A stretch of DNA of 20,058 nucleotides, taken from positions 1-20,058 of IMG/VR virus record IMGVR_UViG_3300028835_000225, one strand, 5' to 3'. Position numbers and translations under genes: made by a program. The notes under the pieces were generated by a model. It did not search any database and had not been told where the DNA came from. It saw nothing but the letters and a program-made list of their open reading frames with translations. This DNA comes from a virus. This document shows, piece by piece, positions 1-20,058 of this stretch (positions within the stretch are counted from its first letter, which is position 1; each line of letters starts with the position of its first letter).

Positions 1-80
1 TCGCAAATAGAGCAGCAGCTATTGCTGTATCACAGATTGGTACTGTAGCTGTTCCTTATTACGAGGTGGAATATGATTAA
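1..80 (+). CDS. 3' end of an upstream gene (partial)
   Basis: An open frame enters from the left edge (codons in phase from base 3) and ends at TAA 78-80. The last 25 residues are rich in Ala and Val and end VPYYEVEYD. The stop lies 8 bases inside the next gene, whose GAGGTGGA ribosome-binding site (63-70) falls within this frame. This tight overlap is typical of co-transcribed phage genes. There is too little sequence to assign a function. Confidence 0.6.
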   Translation, partial: ANRAAAIAVSQIGTVAVPYYEVEYD

Positions 81-1215
81 AACACATTGGACTAGAGCAG
101 AGGTTATGGACACTCTAGAGAAGGCTAGTGTTAGTGGGCTTGAGAGTGGTGTAATGTCACCGCAAGATACTGTAGAGTTGATAATGTATGTAGAGCGACT
201 ATTCTACACTAAGCATGTTGCAGATATACGAGGTAGGCAAGACAAGGTAGCAGGGCTGTGGCAAGATGACACAGGGTTCTTATCATTCTGGTTTCCTACG
301 GAGAGACATAAATACAGTGAGCTAAAAGATGTTATATCACCAGGATGTCACGCTTGTTTGTTTGGTGTGATAACACATGTTAGACATTCGGATAAGTGTA
401 CACAGAGTTGTGACTACTGCTATTATGCATCACCTGAATCTAATATGAACACGAAACCTATAGGAAAAGGTTTATATAGTTTTTCATCTTCCAACATGGA
501 CTTCACTGTAGAGGAAGCACTTGCATTGGTTGCTAGACAAGGCGACCAATATGATGCTATAGGATGGTTACATAAGGAGCCTCTTGAAGAACTAGATTCT
601 ATAGAGCCTGTTATGGTTGAGTTAGCTAAGAGAGGACACCACCAGTATCTATATACTAATGGTGTGAGAGCAACCAAAGAAGTGATAAACAAGTTGATCT
701 CTTGGGGGTTAAATGAGATTAGGTTTAATCTACAAGCTACAGACTTCAGTACTAAGGTTATAGATAAGATTAAGTATGCGAAGAAAAAAGACATATGGAC
801 TTTGATTGAGACACCTATGTTTTCCAAGAGCTATGACAACTTTGTGAAACATAAAGAGAGAATTCTTGATACTGGTCTGTGTCAGATTAATATTCCAGAG
901 CTTCAGGTGTGTGCACCAGGCTTGGTAGATCATTTCGAAGAAACTGAAGGTCCAGTCTATAAACACAGGAGAGGTTACGTTTCTCCTATTTCAAGTAGAC
1001 ACTACGTTTATGATCTTATTGAAATGGCAGAAGCAGAGAATTGGAATGTGGTTATAAACGATTGCTCTAATGATACCAAGTATCTCAGAGGTGCGTTCAA
1101 GCATGCACCTATGGGTCACGTGATGTATGAGTCTTCATTCGAGTTACCGTTTAAGAATGTAGCATACCTAGCGTCAGAAGTGCTAGAGGACGGAGTGACA
1201 TATGAGTTCTTCTAA
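73..1215 (+). CDS. Radical SAM superfamily protein
   Basis: This 380-residue protein carries the radical-SAM cluster motif CX3CX2C (C109, C113, C116, in CTQSCDYCYY), which binds the 4Fe-4S cluster that cleaves S-adenosylmethionine. Other core elements are recognisable: HKEPLEEL near 168-174 stands where GGEP-type motifs lie, YLYTNG (192-197) matches the usual TNG strand, and EIRFNLQA (215-222) matches a later barrel strand. An extra CXXC (SPGCHAC, C92 and C95) lies just before the motif, an arrangement I recall in some anaerobe radical-SAM proteins. Family membership is well supported. The substrate is unknown. The start at 73 has a GAGGTGGA ribosome-binding site 3-10 bases upstream. The gene overlaps the preceding frame by 8 bases and the next gene by 14 bases, so it sits inside an operon that ends at the terminator at 1706-1745. 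Confidence 0.88.
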   Translation: MIKTHWTRAEVMDTLEKASVSGLESGVMSPQDTVELIMYVERLFYTKHVADIRGRQDKVAGLWQDDTGFLSFWFPTERHKYSELKDVISPGCHACLFGVITHVRHSDKCTQSCDYCYYASPESNMNTKPIGKGLYSFSSSNMDFTVEEALALVARQGDQYDAIGWLHKEPLEELDSIEPVMVELAKRGHHQYLYTNGVRATKEVINKLISWGLNEIRFNLQATDFSTKVIDKIKYAKKKDIWTLIETPMFSKSYDNFVKHKERILDTGLCQINIPELQVCAPGLVDHFEETEGPVYKHRRGYVSPISSRHYVYDLIEMAEAENWNVVINDCSNDTKYLRGAFKHAPMGHVMYESSFELPFKNVAYLASEVLEDGVTYEFF

Positions 1216-6706: not shown

Positions 6707-7198
6707 ATGGCAGATGGTGAAGCTTTGAAATATGGTTGGGTTAGAGGCGGACGACAAGGCACCGAGATGATGATGGCTAGGAATTATTCCTACAATCGTT
6801 TGGGTGGTGCGTTTGTTACTGCGTCAGGTGGTTACATGAAACCAGTAACCGCTATAACAGAAGTATGTATTGGTTGGGCCGAGGTTCCAAGAGCGGCTGT
6901 TCCTGGTGTGGTAGATTATTACACCACTAATACTGAGGCTGGTAAGGATAAGTGTTTAGTTATCCATGACCCTACCGCAATTTTTGGGTTACCTGCGGCT
7001 GAAGCTGCGGCTTCTTTATCCGCTTCATTAGTCGGGCGTTTTGTCTGTGCTACATGGACAGGCTCAGGTATAACTCTTATTCAGAAGGTTGACTCCGTAG
7101 CTACGGCTGTAGACACGAGTCAAATGTTTTTCGTTACAGGTGTGGACCTTACTAATAAAATTACGTACGTTAGACTTAATCCGCATCACGTAGCATAA
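6707..7198 (+). CDS. Probable virion decoration or structural protein, copy 1
   Basis: A 163-residue, Gly/Ala/Val/Thr-rich protein just before the capsid gene and next to a clear paralogue. Shared blocks with the next gene are KYGW.RGGR.GT, GGAFVTAS, IGWAEVPR.AVPG, AGKDK.LVIHDPTAIF and YVR.NPHHV. The composition is that of a beta-rich structural protein. The position suggests a capsid decoration or stabilising protein, but I do not recognise a named family, so that role is inferred. The ribosome-binding site is CGGAGGTGA, in a leader nearly the same as those before the next two genes. Confidence 0.7.
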   Translation: MADGEALKYGWVRGGRQGTEMMMARNYSYNRLGGAFVTASGGYMKPVTAITEVCIGWAEVPRAAVPGVVDYYTTNTEAGKDKCLVIHDPTAIFGLPAAEAAASLSASLVGRFVCATWTGSGITLIQKVDSVATAVDTSQMFFVTGVDLTNKITYVRLNPHHVA

Positions 7199-7224: not shown

Positions 7225-7728
7225 ATGGCAGGTGGAGAAGTTTTAAAATATGGATGGGCTAGAGGTGGCCGCATGGGAACTGATATGCCGATAGATGCTA
7301 ACATTACCTTTCATCGTCAAGGTGGGGCTTTTGTTACTGCGTCTGCGAATACTGGTTTGATGGAAATGGTCAATGCTTCGACTGACGTTATCATTGGTTG
7401 GGCTGAAGTACCTCGTTGTGCTGTTCCTGGTACAGCAGATTACTGGACTTCAAGTTCTACTGCTGGCAAGGACAAAGTGCTAGTTATCCATGACCCCACA
7501 GCGATTTTTGCGATGCCAGCAGACGAGACTTTAGCTAGTCTTACCGCTTCTTTAATTGGTAGATTTACTTGTGCTTCTGCCCCACAAGGCAGAGAGAGCA
7601 CATCAATGAAGCAGTTTGCGGGTGCTAAACCATCAACCGCTGTAGGTACACAGCAGTTATTCGTTACTGGCGTGGACGTACCTGAAAAGATTATATACGT
7701 TCGGGTTAATCCGCATCACGTAGTGTAA
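7225..7728 (+). CDS. Probable virion decoration or structural protein, copy 2
   Basis: A 167-residue paralogue of the preceding gene. It is collinear over its whole length, with a few extra residues near GRESTSMKQFAGAKP in the C-terminal third. The ends are the most conserved: the N-terminal KYGW.RGGR and the C-terminal YVR.NPHHV. Conservation of both ends with a diverged middle suggests duplication followed by specialisation, possibly to occupy two capsid sites or to form mixed assemblies. GGAGGTGA lies at good spacing before ATG 7225. The gap to the capsid start (75 bases) contains a small hairpin. Confidence 0.7.
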   Translation: MAGGEVLKYGWARGGRMGTDMPIDANITFHRQGGAFVTASANTGLMEMVNASTDVIIGWAEVPRCAVPGTADYWTSSSTAGKDKVLVIHDPTAIFAMPADETLASLTASLIGRFTCASAPQGRESTSMKQFAGAKPSTAVGTQQLFVTGVDVPEKIIYVRVNPHHVV

Positions 7729-7803: not shown

Positions 7804-8772
7804 ATGGCAGGTGTTCGTAGATCAGACTTTTCAGAAGCTATGAAAAAGGACATGTACGATTACTTTCTAGAATGGGAAAAGTATCAAGAGATTAAACCTG
7901 TTTACGAAAGTATTTTCGATATTATGCCTTCAAGCGCCGCTTACGAGAAGTTCAATTCAGCTATCGGTCTAGGCGATCTAATTGAGAAACCTGAAGGTGA
8001 AGACCTTAAGGCAGACGCTCCATTAGAGAGCTACACGATCTATTGCAAGAATCGAACTTACGGGCGTATGGTACGCTTCACAATGGAATCTGTTCAGGAT
8101 AATCAGAAGTTTGGCGACTTCTTAAAGACTACAGTAGGTTCTTGGAAGGAATCATTAGTTCGTACAAAGGATAGGTTTTACGTCAAGTTCTTCAACAAAG
8201 GTGCGTTAACCGCTGGCGACGACGTTTTCAATAACACCATCACTGGTCTTGTTGATGACACTAGTGGAGACGTTATTTATGACGTACTTCCGTTCTTTGA
8301 TACTGTACATCCAGATAAGGTTGGCGGTACGTATGCTAATTTATCTGATGCTCGTGCGTTAAACCACGACAACCTTGAAACTACATGGGAAACCTACACT
8401 TCAACTAACAACAGAGACGAAAGAGGAAACGAAATTGAGCTTATGCCCAACGTCCTTTTGCTTCCGCCTCAACTGAAGTTTACGGCTGACCGTATTCTTA
8501 AGAGCGCAAATATTCCTGAGAGTGCAGATAATGACATCAATGCGATGCAGAATCTAGTTACTCCTTTAATATGGCAACGACTTACTGACCCAGACGGTTG
8601 GTATTTAGGTGCGCTTGGTAAGGGCCTTATGGGTACAGACCGTATGGCTCCAGAGTTTGACTTTTACCAAGATGAAACTTCCAAAGATTACTACGCTACT
8701 GTTATCTACCGCTTTGGCGGTTGTGTAACTAACTGGCGATTCTGGTATGCATGTAATGTAGCCGCTGCGTAA
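7804..8772 (+). CDS. Major capsid protein (HK97-fold, Mu gpT-like pattern)
   Basis: A 322-residue protein after the scaffold, preceded by one of the best ribosome-binding sites in the window (CGGAGGTGA) and followed directly by a terminator, as for a very highly expressed gene. The order of motifs resembles the Mu-like head subunit group: LPFFDTVHPDKVGGTYANLS in the middle, PNVLLLPPQL, then IPESADNDINAMQN, DGWYLGA, and a C-terminal YRFGGCVTNWRFWYA. The N-terminal region is helical and charged. It forms the icosahedral shell. The family link is from recalled sequence pattern, and position makes the capsid call strong. Confidence 0.88.
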   Translation: MAGVRRSDFSEAMKKDMYDYFLEWEKYQEIKPVYESIFDIMPSSAAYEKFNSAIGLGDLIEKPEGEDLKADAPLESYTIYCKNRTYGRMVRFTMESVQDNQKFGDFLKTTVGSWKESLVRTKDRFYVKFFNKGALTAGDDVFNNTITGLVDDTSGDVIYDVLPFFDTVHPDKVGGTYANLSDARALNHDNLETTWETYTSTNNRDERGNEIELMPNVLLLPPQLKFTADRILKSANIPESADNDINAMQNLVTPLIWQRLTDPDGWYLGALGKGLMGTDRMAPEFDFYQDETSKDYYATVIYRFGGCVTNWRFWYACNVAAA

Positions 8773-9682: not shown

Positions 9683-10102
9683 ATGGGAAGTACACATTAT
9701 AGATCAGATGTAAGAGAGAAGGGTGCCCGTACAGCCAGTTTTAGTACGATTTCGGCTGGTGCATTAACATGCGACAGTCTTGTTAACGCTGGTACTGTTA
9801 CGCAAACGGGACTTATTACAGCTACAGGTGGAATTGCGATTCCAGTGACTAGCTATATTAAGCTCGGTGCCGTTTATCTTATTACTGCTAATCAGGCCGA
9901 TGTTGACGGCTTTACCAATGCGAGCATTAATGCTCTAGCATCAGTAGCCCTAACAGGCGTAGTGGCGACAAAGGGTGACATTCCGAGAGGAACGCTATTC
10001 TTGAATGCCAGTTCAAACGCTGTTGCTAGTAACATGATTCTAGTGAAGGTAGGCTTGGCTTCATGGTACGGTTCTGGTGGCGGTAGCATAATCCAAGATT
10101 AA
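9683..10102 (+). CDS. Fibre- or decoration-like structural protein with MGSTH module
   Basis: A 139-residue protein rich in Ala, Gly, Ser, Thr and Val, typical of beta-structured phage surface proteins. The first 19 residues (MGSTHYRSDVREKGARTAS) match those of the larger fibre-like protein at 15916 at 14 positions, suggesting a shared attachment module. The remainder (ATGGIAIPVTSYIKLGAVYL and onward to a Gly-rich end) is a small beta domain. GGGAGG precedes ATG 9683, and a strong terminator follows the gene. The function is inferred from composition and context; no named family is recognised. Confidence 0.65.
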   Translation: MGSTHYRSDVREKGARTASFSTISAGALTCDSLVNAGTVTQTGLITATGGIAIPVTSYIKLGAVYLITANQADVDGFTNASINALASVALTGVVATKGDIPRGTLFLNASSNAVASNMILVKVGLASWYGSGGGSIIQD

Positions 10103-10991: not shown

Positions 10992-12056
10992 ATGAAGTTC
11001 GAAGACGTAGATACAGTTTTCTTCGGCCCGATGGCAGGAGAGTTAGGTTGGGCATGTTCAAGATGGCATGCGTGGTGTCGATACCGCAGGTTCATGGAGT
11101 TTACTAACTGTAGATCAATGGCAGTAGATTATGATTGGAGATATCCATTGTACGCTGACTTTATCGACGAGTTCATCCCGTTGCCTAAGTGGTTTACTGA
11201 CCTAGGACTAGAGCAAGATTGTTATGAGGCAGTATTACCAGAGGCACCAGCAGGAGGTATGATGCCACAAGATATGTATACTGAGTTGTTAAACTATTGC
11301 AAACAGCATTACAATGTAGGCACTACATGGACGATAAGACCTCCCAGAGGATGCAACTTTATAATTCAAGAGAGGGCTAAGCAAATGTGGAAGCCGCTAA
11401 CCCCCTCACCACAAGCAGAAGATTACGTGAATAGTTTACTAGCTGGAACTACCAGAGAACTAGTAATTGTTTCTGCGAGAGCTAGGTCTAGAGCCGATAA
11501 CCGAAACATACCTGAACAGGTATGGGAGACTGTGGTTAATGGATTGACTACGCACTTTCAAGTAGCTATCACTGGAACAAAACATAGTTCGTCTTTGGTA
11601 ACAAAGGTTGGAAGAGATATAATTAATTTAATACCTCGTACAGGAGTTGATGGGTTAGACGTTCTAATCGCTTTGATGCATCGAGCTAGAATGAGCGTAA
11701 CGTCACAGTCGGGACCCACACTGATTTCGTTATTGTGTGAGACTCCTAGTTACATTGTTGGACATGAGGCTAAGAGACATAGCAAAGATGAAAACTTTCT
11801 GAATACACCAACGATGTTTAGGGAAGCACCATACCACGTGTACGCAGGTGTAAATCCTGAGATTATGCTTAGCGACATAAACGCTTTTTACAACGGCTTG
11901 CGTGAAGCTGAAGGGGTTGTCGATATGGCATACCGAGATTGTCAGACTAAGGACAAGAGCGTTATGCATAGCTTAGTGCACGAAGGCATTAACCTATACA
12001 ACATCTCAGCAGAACAAATGAGACAGGAGATTATTTATGGGAAACCACAGGGGTAA
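10992..12056 (+). CDS. GT-B glycosyltransferase-like protein
   Basis: A 354-residue protein. GPMAGELGWACSRWHAW (12-28) forms the Gly-rich first loop expected at a GT-B N-terminal domain. VIVSARARSRADNRNIP (158-174) and VAITGTKHSS (191-200) fit the start of the second Rossmann domain. TSQSGPTLISLLCETP (237-252) matches the SGP-type donor-site motif of family 9 and related transferases. These enzymes move a sugar from an activated nucleotide to an acceptor. Donor and acceptor cannot be read from the sequence. AGGAG precedes ATG 10992. The gene overlaps the next transferase by 20 bases, so both are probably made together. Confidence 0.75.
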   Translation: MKFEDVDTVFFGPMAGELGWACSRWHAWCRYRRFMEFTNCRSMAVDYDWRYPLYADFIDEFIPLPKWFTDLGLEQDCYEAVLPEAPAGGMMPQDMYTELLNYCKQHYNVGTTWTIRPPRGCNFIIQERAKQMWKPLTPSPQAEDYVNSLLAGTTRELVIVSARARSRADNRNIPEQVWETVVNGLTTHFQVAITGTKHSSSLVTKVGRDIINLIPRTGVDGLDVLIALMHRARMSVTSQSGPTLISLLCETPSYIVGHEAKRHSKDENFLNTPTMFREAPYHVYAGVNPEIMLSDINAFYNGLREAEGVVDMAYRDCQTKDKSVMHSLVHEGINLYNISAEQMRQEIIYGKPQG

Positions 12057-12981
12057 CATAGTACTCGTCGGAGTTCTTGACCAACCTGGGAGCACAAACT
12101 TATACATGGCTAAAGCGTTTGAGAAGGCAGGATTTAATGTTATACCAGTTAACTACAGAACTATTATGGAGAAGTATGGTCCTAACACATTGAACCATCT
12201 TCTTTTCAAGTTATCTAAAGACAATCCAAAGCTTATGTTGTACTCTAAGTTTAACGGTATTGACTCTATGGTTATAGGTAGGTGTAGTCAGAACGATATA
12301 GTGAAAAGCTGGTTCTGGTTTATGGATGGTATAAATACTCTGAGTAAAGTTCCTGAGTGTATACAGCATGCACAGTTAGCTACCTTCTCTTCATTCACAG
12401 GGTTAGGAGTACTTAATTATGTGAAGAAGAAGATAGGAACTGCTGAAGGAATGTTTCATATCATGGAAGGTATAGACCAAGTTGTCTATCGACCTACCAT
12501 AGTGATACCAGAGTTTCAGTGTGACATTGCATTCATTGGTTCGTCGAATCAAGAGAGGTTACACTATCTTAAAGTTTTAGTAGACGCAGGATATAACGTA
12601 AAAGCATATGGTCAAGGATTTAACGAAGAGATTCATGGACATCAATTTAACATGGTGTGTTCTGGTGCGAAGGCGATGTTAGCCTTGAGTGCTGAGTACG
12701 ACACACAAGAGTACTTCTCTGATAGAGTGTTTAGATATGGTGCATGTGGTAGTTTCGTTTTTCACAAGCATGCCCCAGGATTAGACAAGTACTTCACACA
12801 CCAGCAAGACTTGGTTTACTTTAGCGATGAAGAATCATTGTTACAGGTAATGGACTATTACATAAAACAAGACAAAGCAGAGGAACGACAAGCTATCTCA
12901 AAGAACATCTTAGATAAGGTTGTCAATACTCACACTTGGGATAATGTGATTAAACAGATATGTAGTATTGCAAAGATATAA
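12037..12981 (+). CDS. CgeB-like glycosyltransferase
   Basis: A 314-residue GT-B-type protein. The N-terminal half (NIVLVGVLDQPGSTNLYMAK) is the acceptor-side Rossmann fold. MEGIDQVVYRP (143-153) and CDIAFIGSSNQERLHYL (162-178) mark the junction, and YFSDRVFRYGACGSF (226-240) followed by HAPGLDKYF is the typical C-terminal block of CgeB/family-1-type transferases, where the fold binds the sugar nucleotide. CgeB is known in Bacillus spore-coat maturation, and related genes occur in phages. The target here is unknown. GGAG lies before ATG 12037, inside the preceding gene. Confidence 0.8.
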   Translation: MGNHRGNIVLVGVLDQPGSTNLYMAKAFEKAGFNVIPVNYRTIMEKYGPNTLNHLLFKLSKDNPKLMLYSKFNGIDSMVIGRCSQNDIVKSWFWFMDGINTLSKVPECIQHAQLATFSSFTGLGVLNYVKKKIGTAEGMFHIMEGIDQVVYRPTIVIPEFQCDIAFIGSSNQERLHYLKVLVDAGYNVKAYGQGFNEEIHGHQFNMVCSGAKAMLALSAEYDTQEYFSDRVFRYGACGSFVFHKHAPGLDKYFTHQQDLVYFSDEESLLQVMDYYIKQDKAEERQAISKNILDKVVNTHTWDNVIKQICSIAKI

Positions 12982-12991
12982 GGAGTGTGTA

Positions 12992-13756
12992 ATGAAAACT
13001 CTGATAGTATCATGGCATGGGTTAGGTGACAACATCATTATAACCCCTGCGCTGAAAGCCTACAAGAAACAGAATAAAGACGAAGACCTTTATCTTGCTC
13101 ACTTGGCACGCTTACCAGTACATGACCTTCTGGCGAAGTGTCCATATATAAAAGGCTTTCACACCGTCAGCGATGTGTGGAACGATTATGCTGACGTAGA
13201 GTTGGGCAGAGAAGAAGTTATGAATGAAGCGTTAGGATATGCTAATCAATTTGGTTACGAAAAAGTTATAGAATTAACTCTATCACCGAGCTTGGGAATC
13301 CTACACAAAATTCATAGAGCTGCTCACGAGTTAGGAGTTACAGTTACGGATTACCAAACTAATATATACCCAAGGTCAACGAAGAAGATTAAAGCAGAAG
13401 CAGACAAGTTTTTAGAAGGTTCGCATAAGCCCCTCACCTTTATTTCGAGTAAGGCAGGTAATCCCCCAAAGGATTTACCAGAAGAGTTGGTGTTGCGGTT
13501 GTTAGGTTCATATGCCCCTTCAGGAGTAATTGAGTATGGTAGCGATACACTTCCAGCATTGAAGCTACCCATAGGTAACATACCACTAGAGATGGAGATT
13601 CTGAGTAGATGTGATAAGGTACTTTGTGCCGACTCATTCATCCTACACGCTGCTGGAGCGTTGGGGATACCGACTACGGCTGTATTCTTAGTAACACCGC
13701 CTGAGTGGGTAATACCTCTACATGATACTCCGTTAGAGTTGTACATAAAAGTATAA
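12992..13756 (+). CDS. Family 9-like glycosyltransferase (heptosyltransferase-like)
   Basis: A 254-residue protein. VSWHGLGDNIIITPALKA (6-23) is the signature GLGD-type N-terminal loop of ADP-heptose/family 9 transferases. LCADSFILHAAGALGIP (211-227) matches their DSG..H.A.ALG.P donor site, with Phe where Gly is usual. It is shorter than classical heptosyltransferases (about 320-350 residues). I chose ATG 12992 because AGGAG (12981-12985) sits six bases upstream. An in-frame TTG at 12968 would add eight residues but has no ribosome-binding site. Third of three consecutive transferases. A heptose donor is not implied. Confidence 0.78.
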   Translation: MKTLIVSWHGLGDNIIITPALKAYKKQNKDEDLYLAHLARLPVHDLLAKCPYIKGFHTVSDVWNDYADVELGREEVMNEALGYANQFGYEKVIELTLSPSLGILHKIHRAAHELGVTVTDYQTNIYPRSTKKIKAEADKFLEGSHKPLTFISSKAGNPPKDLPEELVLRLLGSYAPSGVIEYGSDTLPALKLPIGNIPLEMEILSRCDKVLCADSFILHAAGALGIPTTAVFLVTPPEWVIPLHDTPLELYIKV

Positions 13757-13769
13757 GGAAGTGAAATGA

Positions 13770-14513
13770 ATGGCTGATTATTTACTAAATCCAAAGGCAG
13801 GAGATCACTACGCTAACAGTTATGTGACGAGAGTAGAAGCTAGTCAATACTTTGACAGGCATTATACTGGCATAAGTTATTGGTCTAACCTGAATGCTAC
13901 ACAGCAAGAGCAGGTGTTGATTCAGGGAGCGCATGACTTAGAGTTACTTAACTATAAAGATAAGAAGTATTACCCTACGCAGTTCCTCTCCTTCCCAAGG
14001 CACACTAACAAAATAAGGACAGGTACGGCTAGCATGGTTGCTTCCGCTACTGCGTTTACAGTTAGAGGATTGAATCTCTATAGTTCGACTTACAACGCAA
14101 TACCTGAAAACTATTTCAAGTATGGAACCGTGGTAATGGACAATGGACTTAACAGAGGACAATCTAGATACATCTCTTCATCTAATGCTTCCATTGATGG
14201 GAAGTTTGGAGAGATCGTTGTATCCTCGCCATTCAATCAGATGGTAGCAGCGTCAGATACTTATATTGTATTTGACCCGATACCACCACAGGTTAAGTGG
14301 GCGCAATGTGAACAAGCCCTTGCTATTGCAGAGAATAGATATTATAATTATGGAGACTATAACTATTCTGGGATAGGGTACGTACGTACTGGTGATTTGG
14401 GTATGTCTTTCAAGAACCCAGATAGCACCATCCCAGGTAGAAAGATATGTTTGAAAGCAAGACGATTATTAGGACGATTCACAAGGAAGACAATGAAATA
14501 CGGGAGAGCGTAA
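13770..14513 (+). CDS. Head-tail adaptor (connector) protein with internal insertion
   Basis: A 247-residue protein. WSNLNATQQEQVLIQGAHDL (38-57), then QFLSFPR (71-77), and finally IPPQVKWAQCEQALAIAE (171-188) form the pattern of the phage connector family often labelled DnaT-like. It binds the portal ring and starts the neck. About 90 residues (79-169), rich in Ser, Thr, Tyr and Asn, sit between the FPR and IPPQV segments, where family members usually have a short loop. This insertion may form an exposed beta domain. The gene lies between transferase genes, and its stop overlaps the next start by one base. Confidence 0.78.
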   Translation: MADYLLNPKAGDHYANSYVTRVEASQYFDRHYTGISYWSNLNATQQEQVLIQGAHDLELLNYKDKKYYPTQFLSFPRHTNKIRTGTASMVASATAFTVRGLNLYSSTYNAIPENYFKYGTVVMDNGLNRGQSRYISSSNASIDGKFGEIVVSSPFNQMVAASDTYIVFDPIPPQVKWAQCEQALAIAENRYYNYGDYNYSGIGYVRTGDLGMSFKNPDSTIPGRKICLKARRLLGRFTRKTMKYGRA

Positions 14514-15031
14514 TGTACAAACTAGTACTATCACCACGAAGATACTCAGCGATCTTACATGCTTCGAGTGTGCTTGATAGCGGAACAGTGATGATGATTA
14601 TAGCGAATGGTATGGAAGAAGACTCACCATACAAGTTCTGCTTGGAAGCAATGACAGTACAGAGAAAGTTTGAGCTAGAGAAGGCGCATAAGATATTTGG
14701 AGTTAAGCAGTTGTATACTATGAACCAGAGCGTGTATCATTTAGACTACGACCTAATCACACTGAAGTTACAACTACTGCTTGCTGTTTCTCCTTTCACG
14801 CACTTCTACTTTATGAATAACGGAGACCAACGCTTGTTCCAAATTTGTCAATCTGTTAATACTAATGCGAAGAAACTAGTGTACAAGCCCAAAGGTAAAG
14901 TAAGTTGGGTGCACACTCTCAACGAGAAAGAAATAGAAAGAAAGCTTAATGCGATTGAACGAATGACTACTGTGCGTAAAGAGTTGCTTGCGTACGATCT
15001 AACTACAGAATACGTACAGAGGTATTTATGA
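14513..15031 (+). CDS. PIG-L/LmbE-like protein lacking the metal ligands
   Basis: A 172-residue protein whose layout resembles PIG-L/LmbE de-N-acetylases: a first strand YKLVLSP, then GTVMMIIANGMEED, R51, ELEKAHKIFGVKQLY (54-68), LQLLLAVSPFTHFYFMNNGDQ, and a C-terminal K..AIE helix. The usual PHPDD metal motif is replaced by PRRYS (8-12), and no HPDH-type motif follows GDQ. If the homology is right, it is a non-catalytic relative. The resemblance is from memory and needs a profile or structure search. I chose ATG 14513 (TAATG junction, GGGAG upstream) over in-frame ATG 14447, which would overlap the adaptor by 66 bases more. Confidence 0.55.
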   Translation: MYKLVLSPRRYSAILHASSVLDSGTVMMIIANGMEEDSPYKFCLEAMTVQRKFELEKAHKIFGVKQLYTMNQSVYHLDYDLITLKLQLLLAVSPFTHFYFMNNGDQRLFQICQSVNTNAKKLVYKPKGKVSWVHTLNEKEIERKLNAIERMTTVRKELLAYDLTTEYVQRYL

Positions 15032-15897
15032 TAGAGAATCTAATGGAGAAGTACTACGGTGACAAGTTGTACGATTACAACTTACCTAGAGCAGAAGCAG
15101 AACTACAAACGATAATTGATTTTGAAGAAAAAAAAGGAGAACTCTTTGTATCTATTAGTTGTCCTATCTGTTACGAGAAACCTGTTTTCTCTGTACATAA
15201 AAGTAGAGCAGGATGTGTAGGTCAGTGTTTATGCTGCGGTACTATATATAATTACATACGTCTTAGTGACTTAGTAACTTCTGCATGGTACGAGAACTTT
15301 CTACCAGGGTTTCTTATTAACCTTAAGATACGTAAGGATGATTGGGTTAGACGACCACTGTTGAACAACTATGATTTAGATGTAATAGAGTCCTACACTG
15401 ACGTAGGAAACTTACTAGACATAGGAGCATGTGGTGGAGACTTACTGGTGTACGCAAGAGAACGTGGATGGGTAGTAGCAGGACAAGACCTAAGCAAGCC
15501 GTGTATGTATGTGTTAAAAGAGTTAGACATACCAGCAGTACTTGGGCATGTACACAGCACTATGTACCAAGAAGCTTCTTTCAGTGTAATCTCTATGAGA
15601 CACACATTAGAACACTTCATGTATCCACAGACTGAACTAAGAGTGTTGCGTCATGTACTTGCGGAAGATGGTTTGTTGTACATAGTTGTACCGAGGTGGC
15701 AAGAATACTTTGTTGAAAAGAACTATGATCTTCCACAACACCTAACACATTATACATTGGAATCCTTAGACATGATAATGAACTTCACAGGATTCGAGGT
15801 TCTGTTGCTGGAAAACGCTGAGTGTTCAAGAACATTAATAGATGATGAATTCAAAGGAATTTATAATAACATAAGATGTGTAGCAAGAAAAAAATAA
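15028..15897 (+). CDS. Zinc-ribbon class I SAM-dependent methyltransferase
   Basis: A 289-residue protein. An N-terminal zinc ribbon, CPIC (C45, C48) and CLCC (C67, C70), precedes the Rossmann methyltransferase: LLDIGACGGDLL (129-140) is motif I for SAM binding, QDLS the acidic end of strand 2, SVISMRHTLEHFMYP (186-200) the post-II/IV region, and LRHVLAEDGLLYIVVP (207-222) the next strand. Zinc ribbon plus this methyltransferase type is known from deoxysugar C-methyltransferases, so sugar methylation is a reasonable idea, while protein or other targets remain open. Its ATG overlaps the preceding TGA (ATGA), so the two are translated in tandem. Confidence 0.8.
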   Translation: MIENLMEKYYGDKLYDYNLPRAEAELQTIIDFEEKKGELFVSISCPICYEKPVFSVHKSRAGCVGQCLCCGTIYNYIRLSDLVTSAWYENFLPGFLINLKIRKDDWVRRPLLNNYDLDVIESYTDVGNLLDIGACGGDLLVYARERGWVVAGQDLSKPCMYVLKELDIPAVLGHVHSTMYQEASFSVISMRHTLEHFMYPQTELRVLRHVLAEDGLLYIVVPRWQEYFVEKNYDLPQHLTHYTLESLDMIMNFTGFEVLLLENAECSRTLIDDEFKGIYNNIRCVARKK

Positions 15898-15915
15898 ATA
15901 AAGTAGGTGAGTTAG

Positions 15916-17196
15916 GTGGGTTCAACACATTTAAGATCAGACTTTCGTGAGCATGGCGAAATTACGGCTAGTATCACTAACATACAAACAGCATCATTGT
16001 CAGTACAGACTATCCAACTTGACATTGACTATCCTCAAGATTCTGCTATAGAAGGACAAGTACGATGGAATAGTGTTGACGGTACTATGGAGTACGGACT
16101 TGCTGGTGGTAATGTTGTTTTACAGGTTGGGCAGGAATCTGTCATAAGAGTAGTAAACAAAATAGCTACAAATATAGCTGATGGTGATGTCGTGTATCTT
16201 TCTGGTGCACAGGGTGGAAGACCTACAGTAGCTCTAACACAGAATGACGTACATGACCCCTCTCATGTTATAGGTATGGCAACTGAAGACATAGATATAA
16301 ATGCTAATGGTTATGTAACTGTTCATGGTCTTGTCCGTGATCTTGATACATCTGCTTGGACAGCAGGTGACTCATTATACATAGCGGCAACTCCTGGCGG
16401 TTATAGGAATTCAATGCCTGAAGCAGATAGGTATGTTTGCCATGTAGGACACATTATAACTTCTAATGCTGATAGTGGTATAATATTCATTAGTCCTAAT
16501 GTACATCCACAACTTGAACATATGTCGTTAGTTGCTAGTACACCAGCTTCGATTTCTGGACAGGTATTATCGTGGAACACAGGTGGGTACTATGAACTAG
16601 CTACTAGGTTATATGTAGGTAATGCTGCTAGTAATGTTACAATAAGTCAGAGATCAGGTATACGTTTCACAGGAATTGACATTTGGGATAGTATAGATAT
16701 TAATGCTGCCGCTGTGCAGATTAACCCAGGAACTTCTAAACCAGATACAGTTGATATAGGCATAGGTAAAATACAGACATTGGGATTTGACAATACTTCA
16801 TCTGAATGGGTATCAGCAGAGGTAACTCTGCCTCACAGTTGGAAAGAAGGTACAGATATACATAACCATATTTCATGGATGGGTTCCGACGATTCAGCGG
16901 GTGGAGTACGTTGGGTACTTGAGTATGCATGGGTGAACAGGGAAGATCAGCTTACTAGTGTAGCTACACTAGGAGTAACGGGTACTGCCGCCTCAGACCT
17001 ACAAATTATAGACAATGAATTTGCAGATATATCAGGTTCAGGCAAAACAATAGGTAGTCATTTTGTTCTATCTTTAACACGTAACGTTACACATAGTGAG
17101 GATACATATGGAGCCGATGCATTACTTCTAGATTTAGATTTCCATTATCTAAAAGATGGTATTGGTTCAGATCAAGAGGATGCTAAAAACGCATAA
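15916..17196 (+). CDS. Fibre-like virion protein with MGSTH module
   Basis: A 426-residue, beta-rich protein. Residues 1-19 (MGSTHLRSDFREHGEITAS) repeat the N-terminal module of the small protein at 9683. A middle domain with GDVVYLSG, HVIGMATEDIDI and AGDSLYIAATPGG resembles repeated beta units of phage fibres. The C-terminal domain, about 285-426, holds VTLPHSWKEGTDIHNHISWM and GGVRWVLEYAWVN, a pattern I recall at the ends of phage surface proteins. It may be a head or neck fibre that binds host or glycan. The start is GTG 15916, with AAGTAGGTGAG upstream. It sits among neck genes, before the stopper. Confidence 0.72.
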   Translation: MGSTHLRSDFREHGEITASITNIQTASLSVQTIQLDIDYPQDSAIEGQVRWNSVDGTMEYGLAGGNVVLQVGQESVIRVVNKIATNIADGDVVYLSGAQGGRPTVALTQNDVHDPSHVIGMATEDIDINANGYVTVHGLVRDLDTSAWTAGDSLYIAATPGGYRNSMPEADRYVCHVGHIITSNADSGIIFISPNVHPQLEHMSLVASTPASISGQVLSWNTGGYYELATRLYVGNAASNVTISQRSGIRFTGIDIWDSIDINAAAVQINPGTSKPDTVDIGIGKIQTLGFDNTSSEWVSAEVTLPHSWKEGTDIHNHISWMGSDDSAGGVRWVLEYAWVNREDQLTSVATLGVTGTAASDLQIIDNEFADISGSGKTIGSHFVLSLTRNVTHSEDTYGADALLLDLDFHYLKDGIGSDQEDAKNA

Positions 17197-17208
17197 GGAG
17201 TGAGTTGA

Positions 17209-17532
17209 ATGGTAGGTACAGGCGAGATATTCTTTCATCAAACAATATCAGCAATACAAAGAAACACCAGAGACAAGTGGGGAGACTTAACCCCTGGTGC
17301 GTTGTATACTAATGTAGACACTAGGTTTGTCTTTGATACATCTCGTACACGAGGCGTAGCAGAGGACGAACGAGTTGATGCACTAGCGTACATAGGTCCG
17401 CAGTATGCTGTACAGCCTGACGACATCGTCACGTACCTGAGTGTGAACTACATGGTAGTTAAAGTATTCCATGAGTACGATCTATTCGGCAATGTAGATC
17501 ATTTAAAGTTGACACTGAGGCAGAGAACATAA
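17209..17532 (+). CDS. Head closure (stopper) protein, putative
   Basis: A 107-residue protein directly before the tail-completion and tail-terminator genes, where the stopper normally lies. It is mostly beta: ISAIQRNTRDKWGD near the start, an acidic/basic middle (RTRGVAEDERVDALAYIG), and VQPDDIVTYLSVNYMVVKV leading to a final strand HLKLTLRQRT. This fits the small beta-barrel head-closure proteins that plug the portal channel and receive the tail. Similarity is by order, size and strand pattern, not a diagnostic motif. AAGGAG precedes ATG 17209, and the gene overlaps the next by one base. Confidence 0.65.
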   Translation: MVGTGEIFFHQTISAIQRNTRDKWGDLTPGALYTNVDTRFVFDTSRTRGVAEDERVDALAYIGPQYAVQPDDIVTYLSVNYMVVKVFHEYDLFGNVDHLKLTLRQRT

Positions 17533-18179
17533 TGGCTGGCGAAGGCTTGAATGCAAAGTATGCGTACAACAGGTCTCGTAAAGTAGCACAACAGATTATG
17601 AACAAAGATATTAATGAATACGTTAAGAGTATAGTTGGGATAAAAAGCAGACGGAGTTTTTACTTCCTAGCTACAAAGTATATCTCAAGACGATTGATAC
17701 AGATTGCCGCTGTGATACTTGAAGATGCTGCTAAGAGATGCCCGTATGAATCGGGCGAGCTTCGGGAAAGTGGAGAAGTTAGACTGACAGCAGGTGCAGT
17801 AACAGGCATGGATACTTACGTAAAGGTTGAAGAAGGTACTGGCAACACAGAAACCCCACAGGTTGTTATCTTAAAGGATTATATATCAAAGGGTGCCGCT
17901 ATCATGGAGATGTCAATAATCTTTGACAAGCAAATTAAAGGTAGAGACTTAGCACTGTGGGCGCACGAGGAACTACTTAGGTATGTCAGGAGACCAAAGA
18001 CAGATACGAATGTAGGACAATGGCATGCCACTCATTTTGGAACTGGACCTAAGTACTTGGAGAACGCTTTCAAGCTACACAAGTCAAGTATCCCAAGTGA
18101 GCTAAGAAGAGGATTAGTAGAAGCAATAAGAGCATACAATAAAAGACACGGTACACGTGCAAGAAGGAGGGCAATCTAA
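17532..18179 (+). CDS. Tail completion protein (HK97 gp10-like), putative
   Basis: A 215-residue, basic protein. It has helical N-terminal segments (about 30-75), then RCPYESGELRESG (residues about 75-87), which matches the P..tG.LR.S motif of HK97 gp10-like proteins. TGMDTYVKVEEGT fits the strands that follow, and GTGPKYLENAFK near 170 fits their final helix (family pattern: p.fL..A). These proteins act between stopper and tail tube. Overlaps of one base on both sides (TAATG) indicate coupled translation with its neighbours. The C-terminal tail is strongly basic. Confidence 0.75.
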   Translation: MAGEGLNAKYAYNRSRKVAQQIMNKDINEYVKSIVGIKSRRSFYFLATKYISRRLIQIAAVILEDAAKRCPYESGELRESGEVRLTAGAVTGMDTYVKVEEGTGNTETPQVVILKDYISKGAAIMEMSIIFDKQIKGRDLALWAHEELLRYVRRPKTDTNVGQWHATHFGTGPKYLENAFKLHKSSIPSELRRGLVEAIRAYNKRHGTRARRRAI

Positions 18180-18607
18180 TGCCGAGTTTGATAGAAGATT
18201 TAGGTACACATTTTTTAGGGTTAGCTAGTACTAATGCAGTTCTCACTAACTTTGGGGCAACTCAGTTCGTAGAGAACAGTAATCTATTTTATATAATGGA
18301 ACCAGCCACCCCTAACAACAGTGTGACGCTTATTCCTTACGGTGGAGGAAAGCCTGACACAGCACATAGGAATGCTCAGTATCCGTCAATGCAAGTTAGA
18401 GTGAAGGCAAGCGGTGTAGCAAAGGGATACAAAGTTACTCAGGCTATCATTAATGAATTACATCAGAACAATGAGTTGGGTTCAAACATCCCGATGAAGT
18501 GTTTTGCTATACAGTCTTCACCAATGTTTTTGAAATGGGATGAAGAAGATTATCCAGTATATGTATGTAACTTTGACTTCATGCATATCAAGTATACAGT
18601 TAGCTAA
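18179..18607 (+). CDS. Tail terminator protein, putative
   Basis: A 142-residue protein in the usual tail-terminator position, before the tail tube gene. It contains NSVTLIPYGGGKPDTAHRNAQYPSMQVRVKA, split here as PYGGGKPD then YPSMQVRV. This resembles the group annotated as bacteriophage minor capsid/tail terminator proteins, where a short Gly/Pro loop precedes a YP..Q..vR strand. A helix follows (VTQAIINELHQN), then a last strand pair. The terminator caps the tail tube and joins it to the head. GGAGG is found inside the preceding gene, and translation is coupled (TAATG). Confidence 0.72.
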   Translation: MPSLIEDLGTHFLGLASTNAVLTNFGATQFVENSNLFYIMEPATPNNSVTLIPYGGGKPDTAHRNAQYPSMQVRVKASGVAKGYKVTQAIINELHQNNELGSNIPMKCFAIQSSPMFLKWDEEDYPVYVCNFDFMHIKYTVS

Positions 18608-18618
18608 AGGAGAGAACA

Positions 18619-19707
18619 ATGGGTAGGAGACAAGCTCTTTGCACAAAGAAAAATGGCGAACCGATTAGGATACTACACATCGGTCACCACTTCTGCATTC
18701 GGAATGTTAAGCAATGCAGAGCGTTAAAGAAGAAAGGTTATCAAGTAGACGCATTAACGAATAGGGTTTCTTATGGTACAGAATCGTATGATCGTATTCT
18801 GTTCTACCATACCAGAGACCAGTACCGAGCAATATTAGAGGATGTTAAAGATTGGTATGACATCATTCAGGTAGCGAATGAACCTGATTGGATGTTAGTA
18901 GTTGCGCACAATGTTGGTTGCAAGAACCTTGTGCATGATTGCCATGACTTAGATTCTGTTAGACTAAATGCGGCAAACTTGGACGAGATCAGAGTGTTCC
19001 AACGAGCAGACGCAGCAATCTTCGTATCGAAACCGATAGAGAAGTTTGCTAGAGAGTTATATCAATTTGATATGCCTACTGCTGTGTTGTATCATTTCTG
19101 CAATGACGACATCGTAGAGTACCCTCCAGAAGACGAGTCAGGTAGGTCGGGTATTGTATACGAGGGTGGAGCAAATCCCCCTTGGCAAGATCAGCAAACT
19201 CCTTTCAAGTATCGGAGTTTATACAGTCACTTTAAGAAACTAGTTGAGATGGGTAACGAAGTCCACATGTTTATTGGCAACATAGATGGATACGAAGCTT
19301 ATCAAGACATAGGTGCTTTTGTAAGACCGCCAACTCACTACGATACATTAATGAAACAAATGTTAGGCTTTAAATGGGGTGCCCTCATCTTCAACAATGA
19401 GGACTTAGATCAGCCACAAACTAATCTAACAACCATGAATAAAGCCTATGAGTATATTATGTGTGGGCTACCTATCATAGCGATGGGTGCACCGGAACAA
19501 GTGAGAGTACTAGAGAAGTATGGGGTAGTGCTCGACCACAAGAAGACGGAAGACATAGGAAACGTAGAGCAGAAATACGGTCATCTCTATCCAGAGCTTA
19601 AAGCGAACGTAGACAAGGCTCGTAAGACGTTATCTATGGAACGCCATATACACATAATCGAGAATCTTTACAATGAGGTTCTTAAGAAGAACACACGCAA
19701 AAAATAA
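18619..19707 (+). CDS. GT4-like glycosyltransferase
   Basis: A 362-residue GT-B protein. IRILHIGHHFCIRNVKQCRAL (16-36) resembles the first strand and loop, VHDCHDL (about 112-118) the region near the acceptor, ADAAIFVSKPIEKF the domain hinge, and NKAYEYIMCGLPIIAMGAPE (274-293) the E.x7.E-type segment with GLPII. The C-terminus is a basic helix (VLKKNTRKK). It transfers a sugar to an unknown acceptor. AAAGGAG precedes ATG 18619. It lies between tail terminator and tail tube genes, apart from the other three transferases by about 5 kb. Confidence 0.82.
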   Translation: MGRRQALCTKKNGEPIRILHIGHHFCIRNVKQCRALKKKGYQVDALTNRVSYGTESYDRILFYHTRDQYRAILEDVKDWYDIIQVANEPDWMLVVAHNVGCKNLVHDCHDLDSVRLNAANLDEIRVFQRADAAIFVSKPIEKFARELYQFDMPTAVLYHFCNDDIVEYPPEDESGRSGIVYEGGANPPWQDQQTPFKYRSLYSHFKKLVEMGNEVHMFIGNIDGYEAYQDIGAFVRPPTHYDTLMKQMLGFKWGALIFNNEDLDQPQTNLTTMNKAYEYIMCGLPIIAMGAPEQVRVLEKYGVVLDHKKTEDIGNVEQKYGHLYPELKANVDKARKTLSMERHIHIIENLYNEVLKKNTRKK

Positions 19708-19742: not shown

Positions 19743-20058
19743 ATGGCATATTCAGGAGTTATTAAGAGTGACAACTATAGTGTGGGTATGGCTTACATTT
19801 ATATCCATAATACTACTGGTACTACTGGCTTGGCTTCGATTGATGCGCAGATAGCTTCGGCTGCTTACCACACACATTTCTGTGTTGGTAATACGACTAG
19901 CGTTGAGATCACTCCAGATGTAACTTATCTGGACCACTTCATTAGTATTAATGGTGAGCGTAGGCGTGATAAAACTGTTAGTACTCAGCACGCTATCGCT
20001 GTAAACTTCACTCTAGACGAAATAAACGCTACTAACATCATGCGCTTTATGTATGGTG
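19743..20058 (+). CDS. Tail tube (major tail) protein, 5' part
   Basis: An open frame starts at ATG 19743 after AGAGGTGA and runs off the right edge with 105 complete codons. It begins MAYSGVIKSDNYSVGMAYI. Later VTYLDHFISINGERRRDKT and FTLDEINATNIMRFMYG form the tail tube pattern: an acidic site, GERRRD, then a LDEI..N helix, commonly found in major tail proteins of long-tailed phages. The position after the tail terminator supports the call. The missing C-terminal part means length and any added Ig-like domain cannot be judged, and sheath genes (myovirus) cannot be ruled out. Confidence 0.75.
   Translation, partial: MAYSGVIKSDNYSVGMAYIYIHNTTGTTGLASIDAQIASAAYHTHFCVGNTTSVEITPDVTYLDHFISINGERRRDKTVSTQHAIAVNFTLDEINATNIMRFMYG

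Follow-up and report, generated by a model that had tools for sequence, protein, structure and literature searches.

The stretch analysed here, referred to as the window, is the 20,058-base IMG/VR record IMGVR_UViG_3300028835_000225, a fragment of an uncultivated tailed phage with no end repeats over that length. It carries four glycosyltransferase (GT) genes, numbered GT1 to GT4, all of which are co-directional and nearly contiguous with the adaptor, neck, tail terminator and tail tube genes. We consider that they probably serve a late, cytosolic glycosylation of virion proteins by the phage's own enzymes, with a sugar that is perhaps of the heptose type. We infer the virion as the target because the GTs are probably soluble, are made together with the particle, are kept by selection and stand beside capsid genes in unrelated phages. 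A virion glycosylation system made at the same time as the particle had been proposed in a first-pass annotation of this DNA; late co-expression is supported and a virion target is likely, while acceptor and sugar are putative.

Glycosyltransferase genes in the late operon

All main genes of the window lie on the + strand, with terminase, portal, capsid and a run of small proteins followed by the GT block. From position 10992 to the window end there are twelve co-directional genes, in the following order:

10992..12056, + strand: GT1, divergent member of a viral GT9-like family, motif GPWxGEFGWE (102 bits against a family hidden Markov model, HMM, built without the window's clade)
12037..12981, + strand: GT2, glycosyltransferase (PF13524 1.4e-18, passes the Pfam cut-off)
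12992..13756, + strand: GT3, GT9/heptosyltransferase-like (PF01075 4.3e-4, 20.1 bits, just under the cut-off of 22; hhalign with WaaF/WaaC/WaaU)
13770..14513, + strand: head-tail adaptor (PHROG 477 2.6e-16)
14513..15031, + strand: PIG-L-like protein, probably without metal site (weak PIG-L similarity)
15028..15897, + strand: S-adenosylmethionine (SAM) methyltransferase with N-terminal zinc ribbon (PF13489 3.5e-17; CxxC at residues 45 and 67)
15916..17196, + strand: fibre or decoration-like protein, GTG start (PF09956 4.8e-7)
17209..17532, + strand: small neck-region protein, probably head closure by position (PHROG 911, function unknown, 7.4e-9)
17532..18179, + strand: neck / tail completion protein, neck1 (PHROG 5 1.3e-5)
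18179..18607, + strand: tail terminator (PF12691 2.6e-13)
18619..19707, + strand: GT4, glycosyltransferase (PF13439 1.1e-8, passes the Pfam cut-off)
19743..20058, + strand: major tail protein, cut by the window end (PHROG 807 4.2e-10)

The tight, co-directional arrangement described in the first-pass annotation was borne out, as the spacing ranges from an overlap of 20 bp (GT1/GT2) to a gap of 35 bases; the other overlaps are of 4 bp (PIG-L-like/methyltransferase) and 1 bp (adaptor/PIG-L-like, closure/neck1 and neck1/terminator), the remaining gaps measure 10-35 bp, and a recognisable Shine-Dalgarno sequence precedes most starts. The gene order was likewise confirmed, with corrections to the start of GT3 (ATG 12992 after AAGGAG, not TTG 12968), the start of the PIG-L-like gene and the placement of GT4, which is flanked by the genes for the tail terminator and the major tail protein.

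Of the three adjacent GTs described earlier, GT2 passes its Pfam cut-off, GT3 is GT9-like and GT1 needs a family profile. GT3 aligns with E. coli WaaF/WaaC/WaaU in hhalign (94.6%, E 6.8e-8, residues 1-247), and the motifs GLGD and ADSFIxH, invariant across three GT3 homologues, align with the catalytic Asp (GD) and the C-terminal DS...H of WaaF. No long hydrophobic segments were found in the GTs, except for one borderline stretch in GT3.

Conservation in related phages

In terminase, portal and capsid, three related contigs match the window at identities of 93-97% (L003), 81-84% (L004) and 61-75% (L005). GT1-GT2-GT3 are in place in L004 and L005 (54-69% identity), and the L003 contig, which breaks off inside GT2, retains GT1 and the first part of GT2. 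Compared with L003, the ratio of non-synonymous to synonymous substitution rates (dN/dS) is 0.12 for GT1 and 0.27 for GT2, and 0.07-0.21 for the neighbouring structural genes. GT1 and GT2 are kept by selection, at dN/dS in or near the structural-gene range, and because the three-GT block is also conserved in two relatives, it is not a chance association.

The genes around the block are more labile. L004 keeps the adaptor and the PIG-L-like gene, the methyltransferase is missing from both relatives that cover its position (L004 and L005), and L005 has other genes after GT3, with neither a second fibre gene nor an adaptor directly after the GTs. Gene-order comparison, proposed earlier as a way to see whether enzymes and fibre genes move together, shows that the three-GT block stays constant while the fibre, the methyltransferase and the small MGSTH-type protein (see below) vary, and that a homologous GT1-GT2-GT4 set recurs beside unrelated capsids in two other phages; this pattern favours late co-expression with the particle and renders a virion target likely.

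The same enzymes in unrelated backbones

Downstream of their capsid gene, the group G109 (L050, L288) and L270 each carry fused GT1-GT2, one small gene and a homologue of GT4. None of the G109 or L270 proteins matched the capsid, adaptor, neck, terminator or tube proteins of the window by blastp or phmmer; in the same searches only GT1, GT2 and GT4 found counterparts there, besides a marginal hit for p10182. Among the 50 records searched, a GT4 homologue was present in just these two, and GT4 of the window is 39% identical to L050:7236-8285, which adjoins a GT1-GT2 fusion. The capsid and protease of L270 match PHROGs; the capsid of G109 is called from by-eye similarity to that of L270 and its neck and tail genes from position and general look, none of the seven L050 proteins tested having matched PHROGs.

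GT1 and GT2 are linked more widely. Within the 112 listed stretches carrying the GT1 family, window included, GT2 homologues are adjacent to GT1 in 21 and fused with it in 6. Without the window, 26 of the 111 listed stretches show such linkage, against 3.3% by random placement within those stretches (binomial p 2e-15, a value that is only a guide since some records are near-duplicates and not fully independent). Homologues of GT1, GT2 and GT3 occur together in seven other listed stretches, some of them near-duplicates and one on a 349 kb contig.

The apparent transfer of a GT set between unrelated backbones looks new. It bears on the earlier suggestion that interleaving structural and enzyme genes guards an acceptor-modifier pair through recombination, which is supported only in part: the GTs recur beside different capsids and are therefore not tied to one acceptor sequence.

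GT1 and its viral family

GT1 alone matched no Pfam family even at E 1 and no PHROGs. Its family was gathered by a DNA pattern for the N-terminal motif and covers at least 100 viral stretches, the derived counts being among the matches listed. A profile of 54 members matches GT9 enzymes in the PDB (3tov 9.2e-8, 1psw 1.2e-7, 2gt1 2e-7 and, more weakly, TibC at 3.3e-5), 41 of the 54 members match PF01075 at E up to 0.1, and hhalign places the C-terminal half of the family with GT9 (96.0%, E 4.3e-9). The full profile is needed for this, as hhalign gave weak results when GT1 (four sequences) was compared directly with GT3 or the E. coli GT9 enzymes. Judged by its profile, the GT1 family is kin to GT9; GE replaces the GD of GT9, and a conserved N-terminal block is its own.

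The family looks new. PHROGs cover just one of its members, and tblastn of the window's GT1, GT2, GT3, PIG-L-like protein and methyltransferase, together with three other GT1-family members, found no match in the phage collection. The window thus points to a glycosyltransferase family that is present in at least 100 viral metagenome contigs and has no match in about 50,700 named phage records. Bacterial contigs from metagenome-assembled genomes (L272, L275, L280) also carry GT1-family genes among sugar genes, so that the family is not only viral.

A kinase and the possible link to heptose

Two further genes open the window:

3..80, + strand: HldE-like (RfaE domain I) sugar kinase, last 25 codons, cut by the window edge (ANRAAAIAVSQIGTVAVPYYEVEYD*, identical in the L003 kinase)
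73..1215, + strand: radical SAM protein (PF04055 5.9e-9; 68% and 59% identity to L003 and L004)

An HldE-like kinase followed by a radical SAM gene lies upstream of the block in both L003 and L004, and the first bases of the window encode the same kinase C-terminus. The L004 kinase homologue matches TIGR02198 at 2.7e-89 (299 bits, under the curated cut-off of 345). A match to this model, which at the looser threshold also catches other PfkB kinases, was found in 27 of 49 other listed GT1-family records and in 2 of 46 viral records that served as controls and were chosen through an arbitrary 14-base pattern (Fisher 2.7e-8); among records of 30-100 kb the counts were 14/28 and 0/25. PHROG 1238 matched two neighbours of GT1-family genes, and PF13580, the phosphoheptose isomerase domain, had no match in 50 records. 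The possible heptose link to phage glycosylation looks new.

As to the radical SAM gene itself, its identity to L003 (68%) stands against 93-97% for the genes from terminase to capsid, which suggests a recombination boundary just before the terminase. The rest of the L004 contig (L018, L019) apparently holds a nonulosonate-type sugar cassette, with NeuB, a formyltransferase-like gene, DUF4910 and two cytidylyltransferase domains, besides several radical SAM and methyltransferase genes and a weak match to a sulfotransferase; these are not assignable to the phage of the window.

Proposed mechanism

The late morphogenesis operon would supply a set of enzymes that glycosylate the particle of the phage itself, with soluble GTs acting in the cytosol on assembling head, fibre or tail proteins. 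A GT9-type enzyme (GT1 or GT3) would add the first sugar, perhaps heptose from the host ADP-heptose pool, which the phage kinase might boost; GT2, as partner of GT1, would extend it, and GT4, encoded beside the tail tube gene, could act on the tail or add a further sugar. Capping of the glycan may fall to the methyltransferase, and the PIG-L-like protein would more likely be a binding subunit than a deacetylase. The likely use would be masking of the particle or adjustment of its binding. More tentatively, the enzyme with the GPWxGEFGWE motif and its PF13524 partner, often with an HldE-like kinase, could represent a widespread, undescribed viral module that links glycans built on heptose to virion proteins inside the cytoplasm and that has moved as a set between unrelated morphogenesis operons. 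Should the reading of virion glycosylation hold, many environmental virions would bear sugars, a trait missed by genome annotation or filed under host-surface genes.

Accessory and neighbouring genes

The first-pass annotation also listed a PIG-L-like gene and a zinc-ribbon methyltransferase, of which the latter stands, with its PF13489 match and two N-terminal CxxC pairs. A catalytic PIG-L enzyme is unsupported. The weak PDB matches of this protein are two archaeal proteins (E 0.13 and 1.7) that we take to be PIG-L-family deacetylases. PF02585 was not found in the window's own protein and reaches E 0.015, below the cut-off, in the L004 homologue. As we read the two homologues and the PDB match, RRYS/NGDQ stand in place of the metal ligands HPDD/HPDH. 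These comparisons suggest at most a PIG-L-like fold whose metal ligands appear lost, and because the ligands appear replaced in both homologues we do not call the protein a deacetylase.

By tblastn, the fibre-like protein matches annotated tail fibre proteins (e.g. phage Rollin, 6e-24), and its residues 215-424 align with the L004 fibre. Two genes upstream of the block complete the features discussed here:

7804..8772, + strand: major capsid protein (PHROG 371 3.9e-10)
9683..10102, + strand: small MGSTH-type protein, N-terminal motif MG[SN]THxRSDxRExG, common to the fibre gene

The MGSTH-type protein is 72% identical to that of L003, where most neighbours reach 93-97%. In the window, L003, L004 and L005, the motif MG[SN]TxxRSDxRExG heads both this small protein and the fibre-like protein, and may be a common docking segment. 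Ahead of the capsid gene, 6707-7198 and 7225-7728 encode tandem paralogous small proteins, probably decoration proteins, of which L004 and L005 have one copy. No host was assigned, because a search of 84,980 prokaryote genomes with a capsid profile yielded no relative.

Alternative targets

The main rival explanation, which we regard as unlikely, is that the GTs modify the host surface (lipopolysaccharide (LPS) core or O-chain), thereby blocking superinfection or altering the adsorption of rival phages, the late operon being merely a convenient place. Construction of the LPS core is the classical role of GT9 enzymes, and nucleotide-sugar genes are abundant around the GT1-family genes of other viruses. 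In Pelagimyophages, rfaE and glycosyltransferases in the tail-fibre region have been read by the authors as host O-chain modification (PMC7029224). However, neither the window nor a 44.6 kb relative showed a candidate polytopic transferase, flippase or membrane anchor, and late expression would fall after superinfection control is most useful. The host-surface explanation also leaves the position of GT1-GT2-GT4 between the capsid and neck genes of unrelated backbones unexplained.

Several observations nevertheless weigh against virion glycosylation or its heptose component. Solubility does not speak against host LPS as the target, since the GT9 enzymes that build LPS are also soluble, and most other GT1-family viruses seem to hold GT1 amid sugar genes and not structural ones. 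At 180 bits or more the enrichment of the kinase is weaker (9/49 versus 1/46, p 0.016), as it is per base (p 0.0009); only the kinase step was found in the relatives, in which GmhA, GmhB, HldD and HldE domain II were not found. AlphaFold models of GT1 and the PIG-L-like protein have a mean predicted local distance difference test score (pLDDT) near 40, too poor for fold searches; glycan, acceptor and donor are putative.

It is improbable that only fibre or decoration proteins are glycosylated, for receptor binding and with no whole-particle coat. The MGSTH-type and fibre proteins do flank the GT block and vary fast, and in phage ct2os315 (capsid 28.6% identical) the interval between capsid and adaptor holds several fibre genes; but GT4 adjoins the tail tube gene, and L005 keeps the three GTs with no second fibre gene or adaptor directly after them. 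Glycosylation of hypermodified phage DNA, as in T-even phages, is highly improbable, for although phage glycosyltransferases acting on modified bases are known (cited in PMC12619734), no thymidylate-synthase-type pyrimidine hydroxymethylase (PF00303) was found in four records of the group, all fragments, and the GTs are grouped with virion genes, not replication genes.

Comparison with known systems

Virion glycosylation by the phage's own enzymes, the reading preferred here, is already documented in mycobacteriophages. According to PMC12363180 and PMC12619734, virion proteins of Che8 (gp110), Corndog (gp38) and Myrna are glycosylated (Freeman et al. 2023, as cited there), with sugars located on the capsid and the tail tube. 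As described there, those systems share with the window the use of phage-encoded GTs, which in the window lie beside both capsid and tail tube genes; the window differs in having several GTs, apparently of other families, GT9-like enzymes and an HldE-like kinase, and comes from an uncultivated phage.

GT3 and the GT1 family resemble WaaC/WaaF, the GT9 ADP-heptose:LPS heptosyltransferases, in profile, and GT3 also in its GD and DS...H motifs, but the Pfam score of GT3 is slightly under the cut-off, GE stands for GD in the GT1 family, which also has a conserved N-terminal block of its own, and the setting is a phage morphogenesis operon. TibC, a bacterial autotransporter heptosyltransferase, is a GT9-like enzyme that heptosylates proteins (PMC4358343) and is matched by the GT1 family profile; unlike the TibC type, which has a four-cysteine iron finger, GT1 and GT3 have no CxxC pair and hence no such finger. 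Pelagimyophages likewise combine a phage rfaE with glycosyltransferases near fibre genes, although theirs lie in the host-recognition region of a T4-like genome and those of the window inside a head-neck-tail operon. The published readings differ, with virion glycosylation in mycobacteriophages (PMC12363180 and PMC12619734) and host O-chain modification in Pelagimyophages (PMC7029224); our analysis suggests that the former also occurs in environmental phages, through other enzymes and perhaps with heptose.

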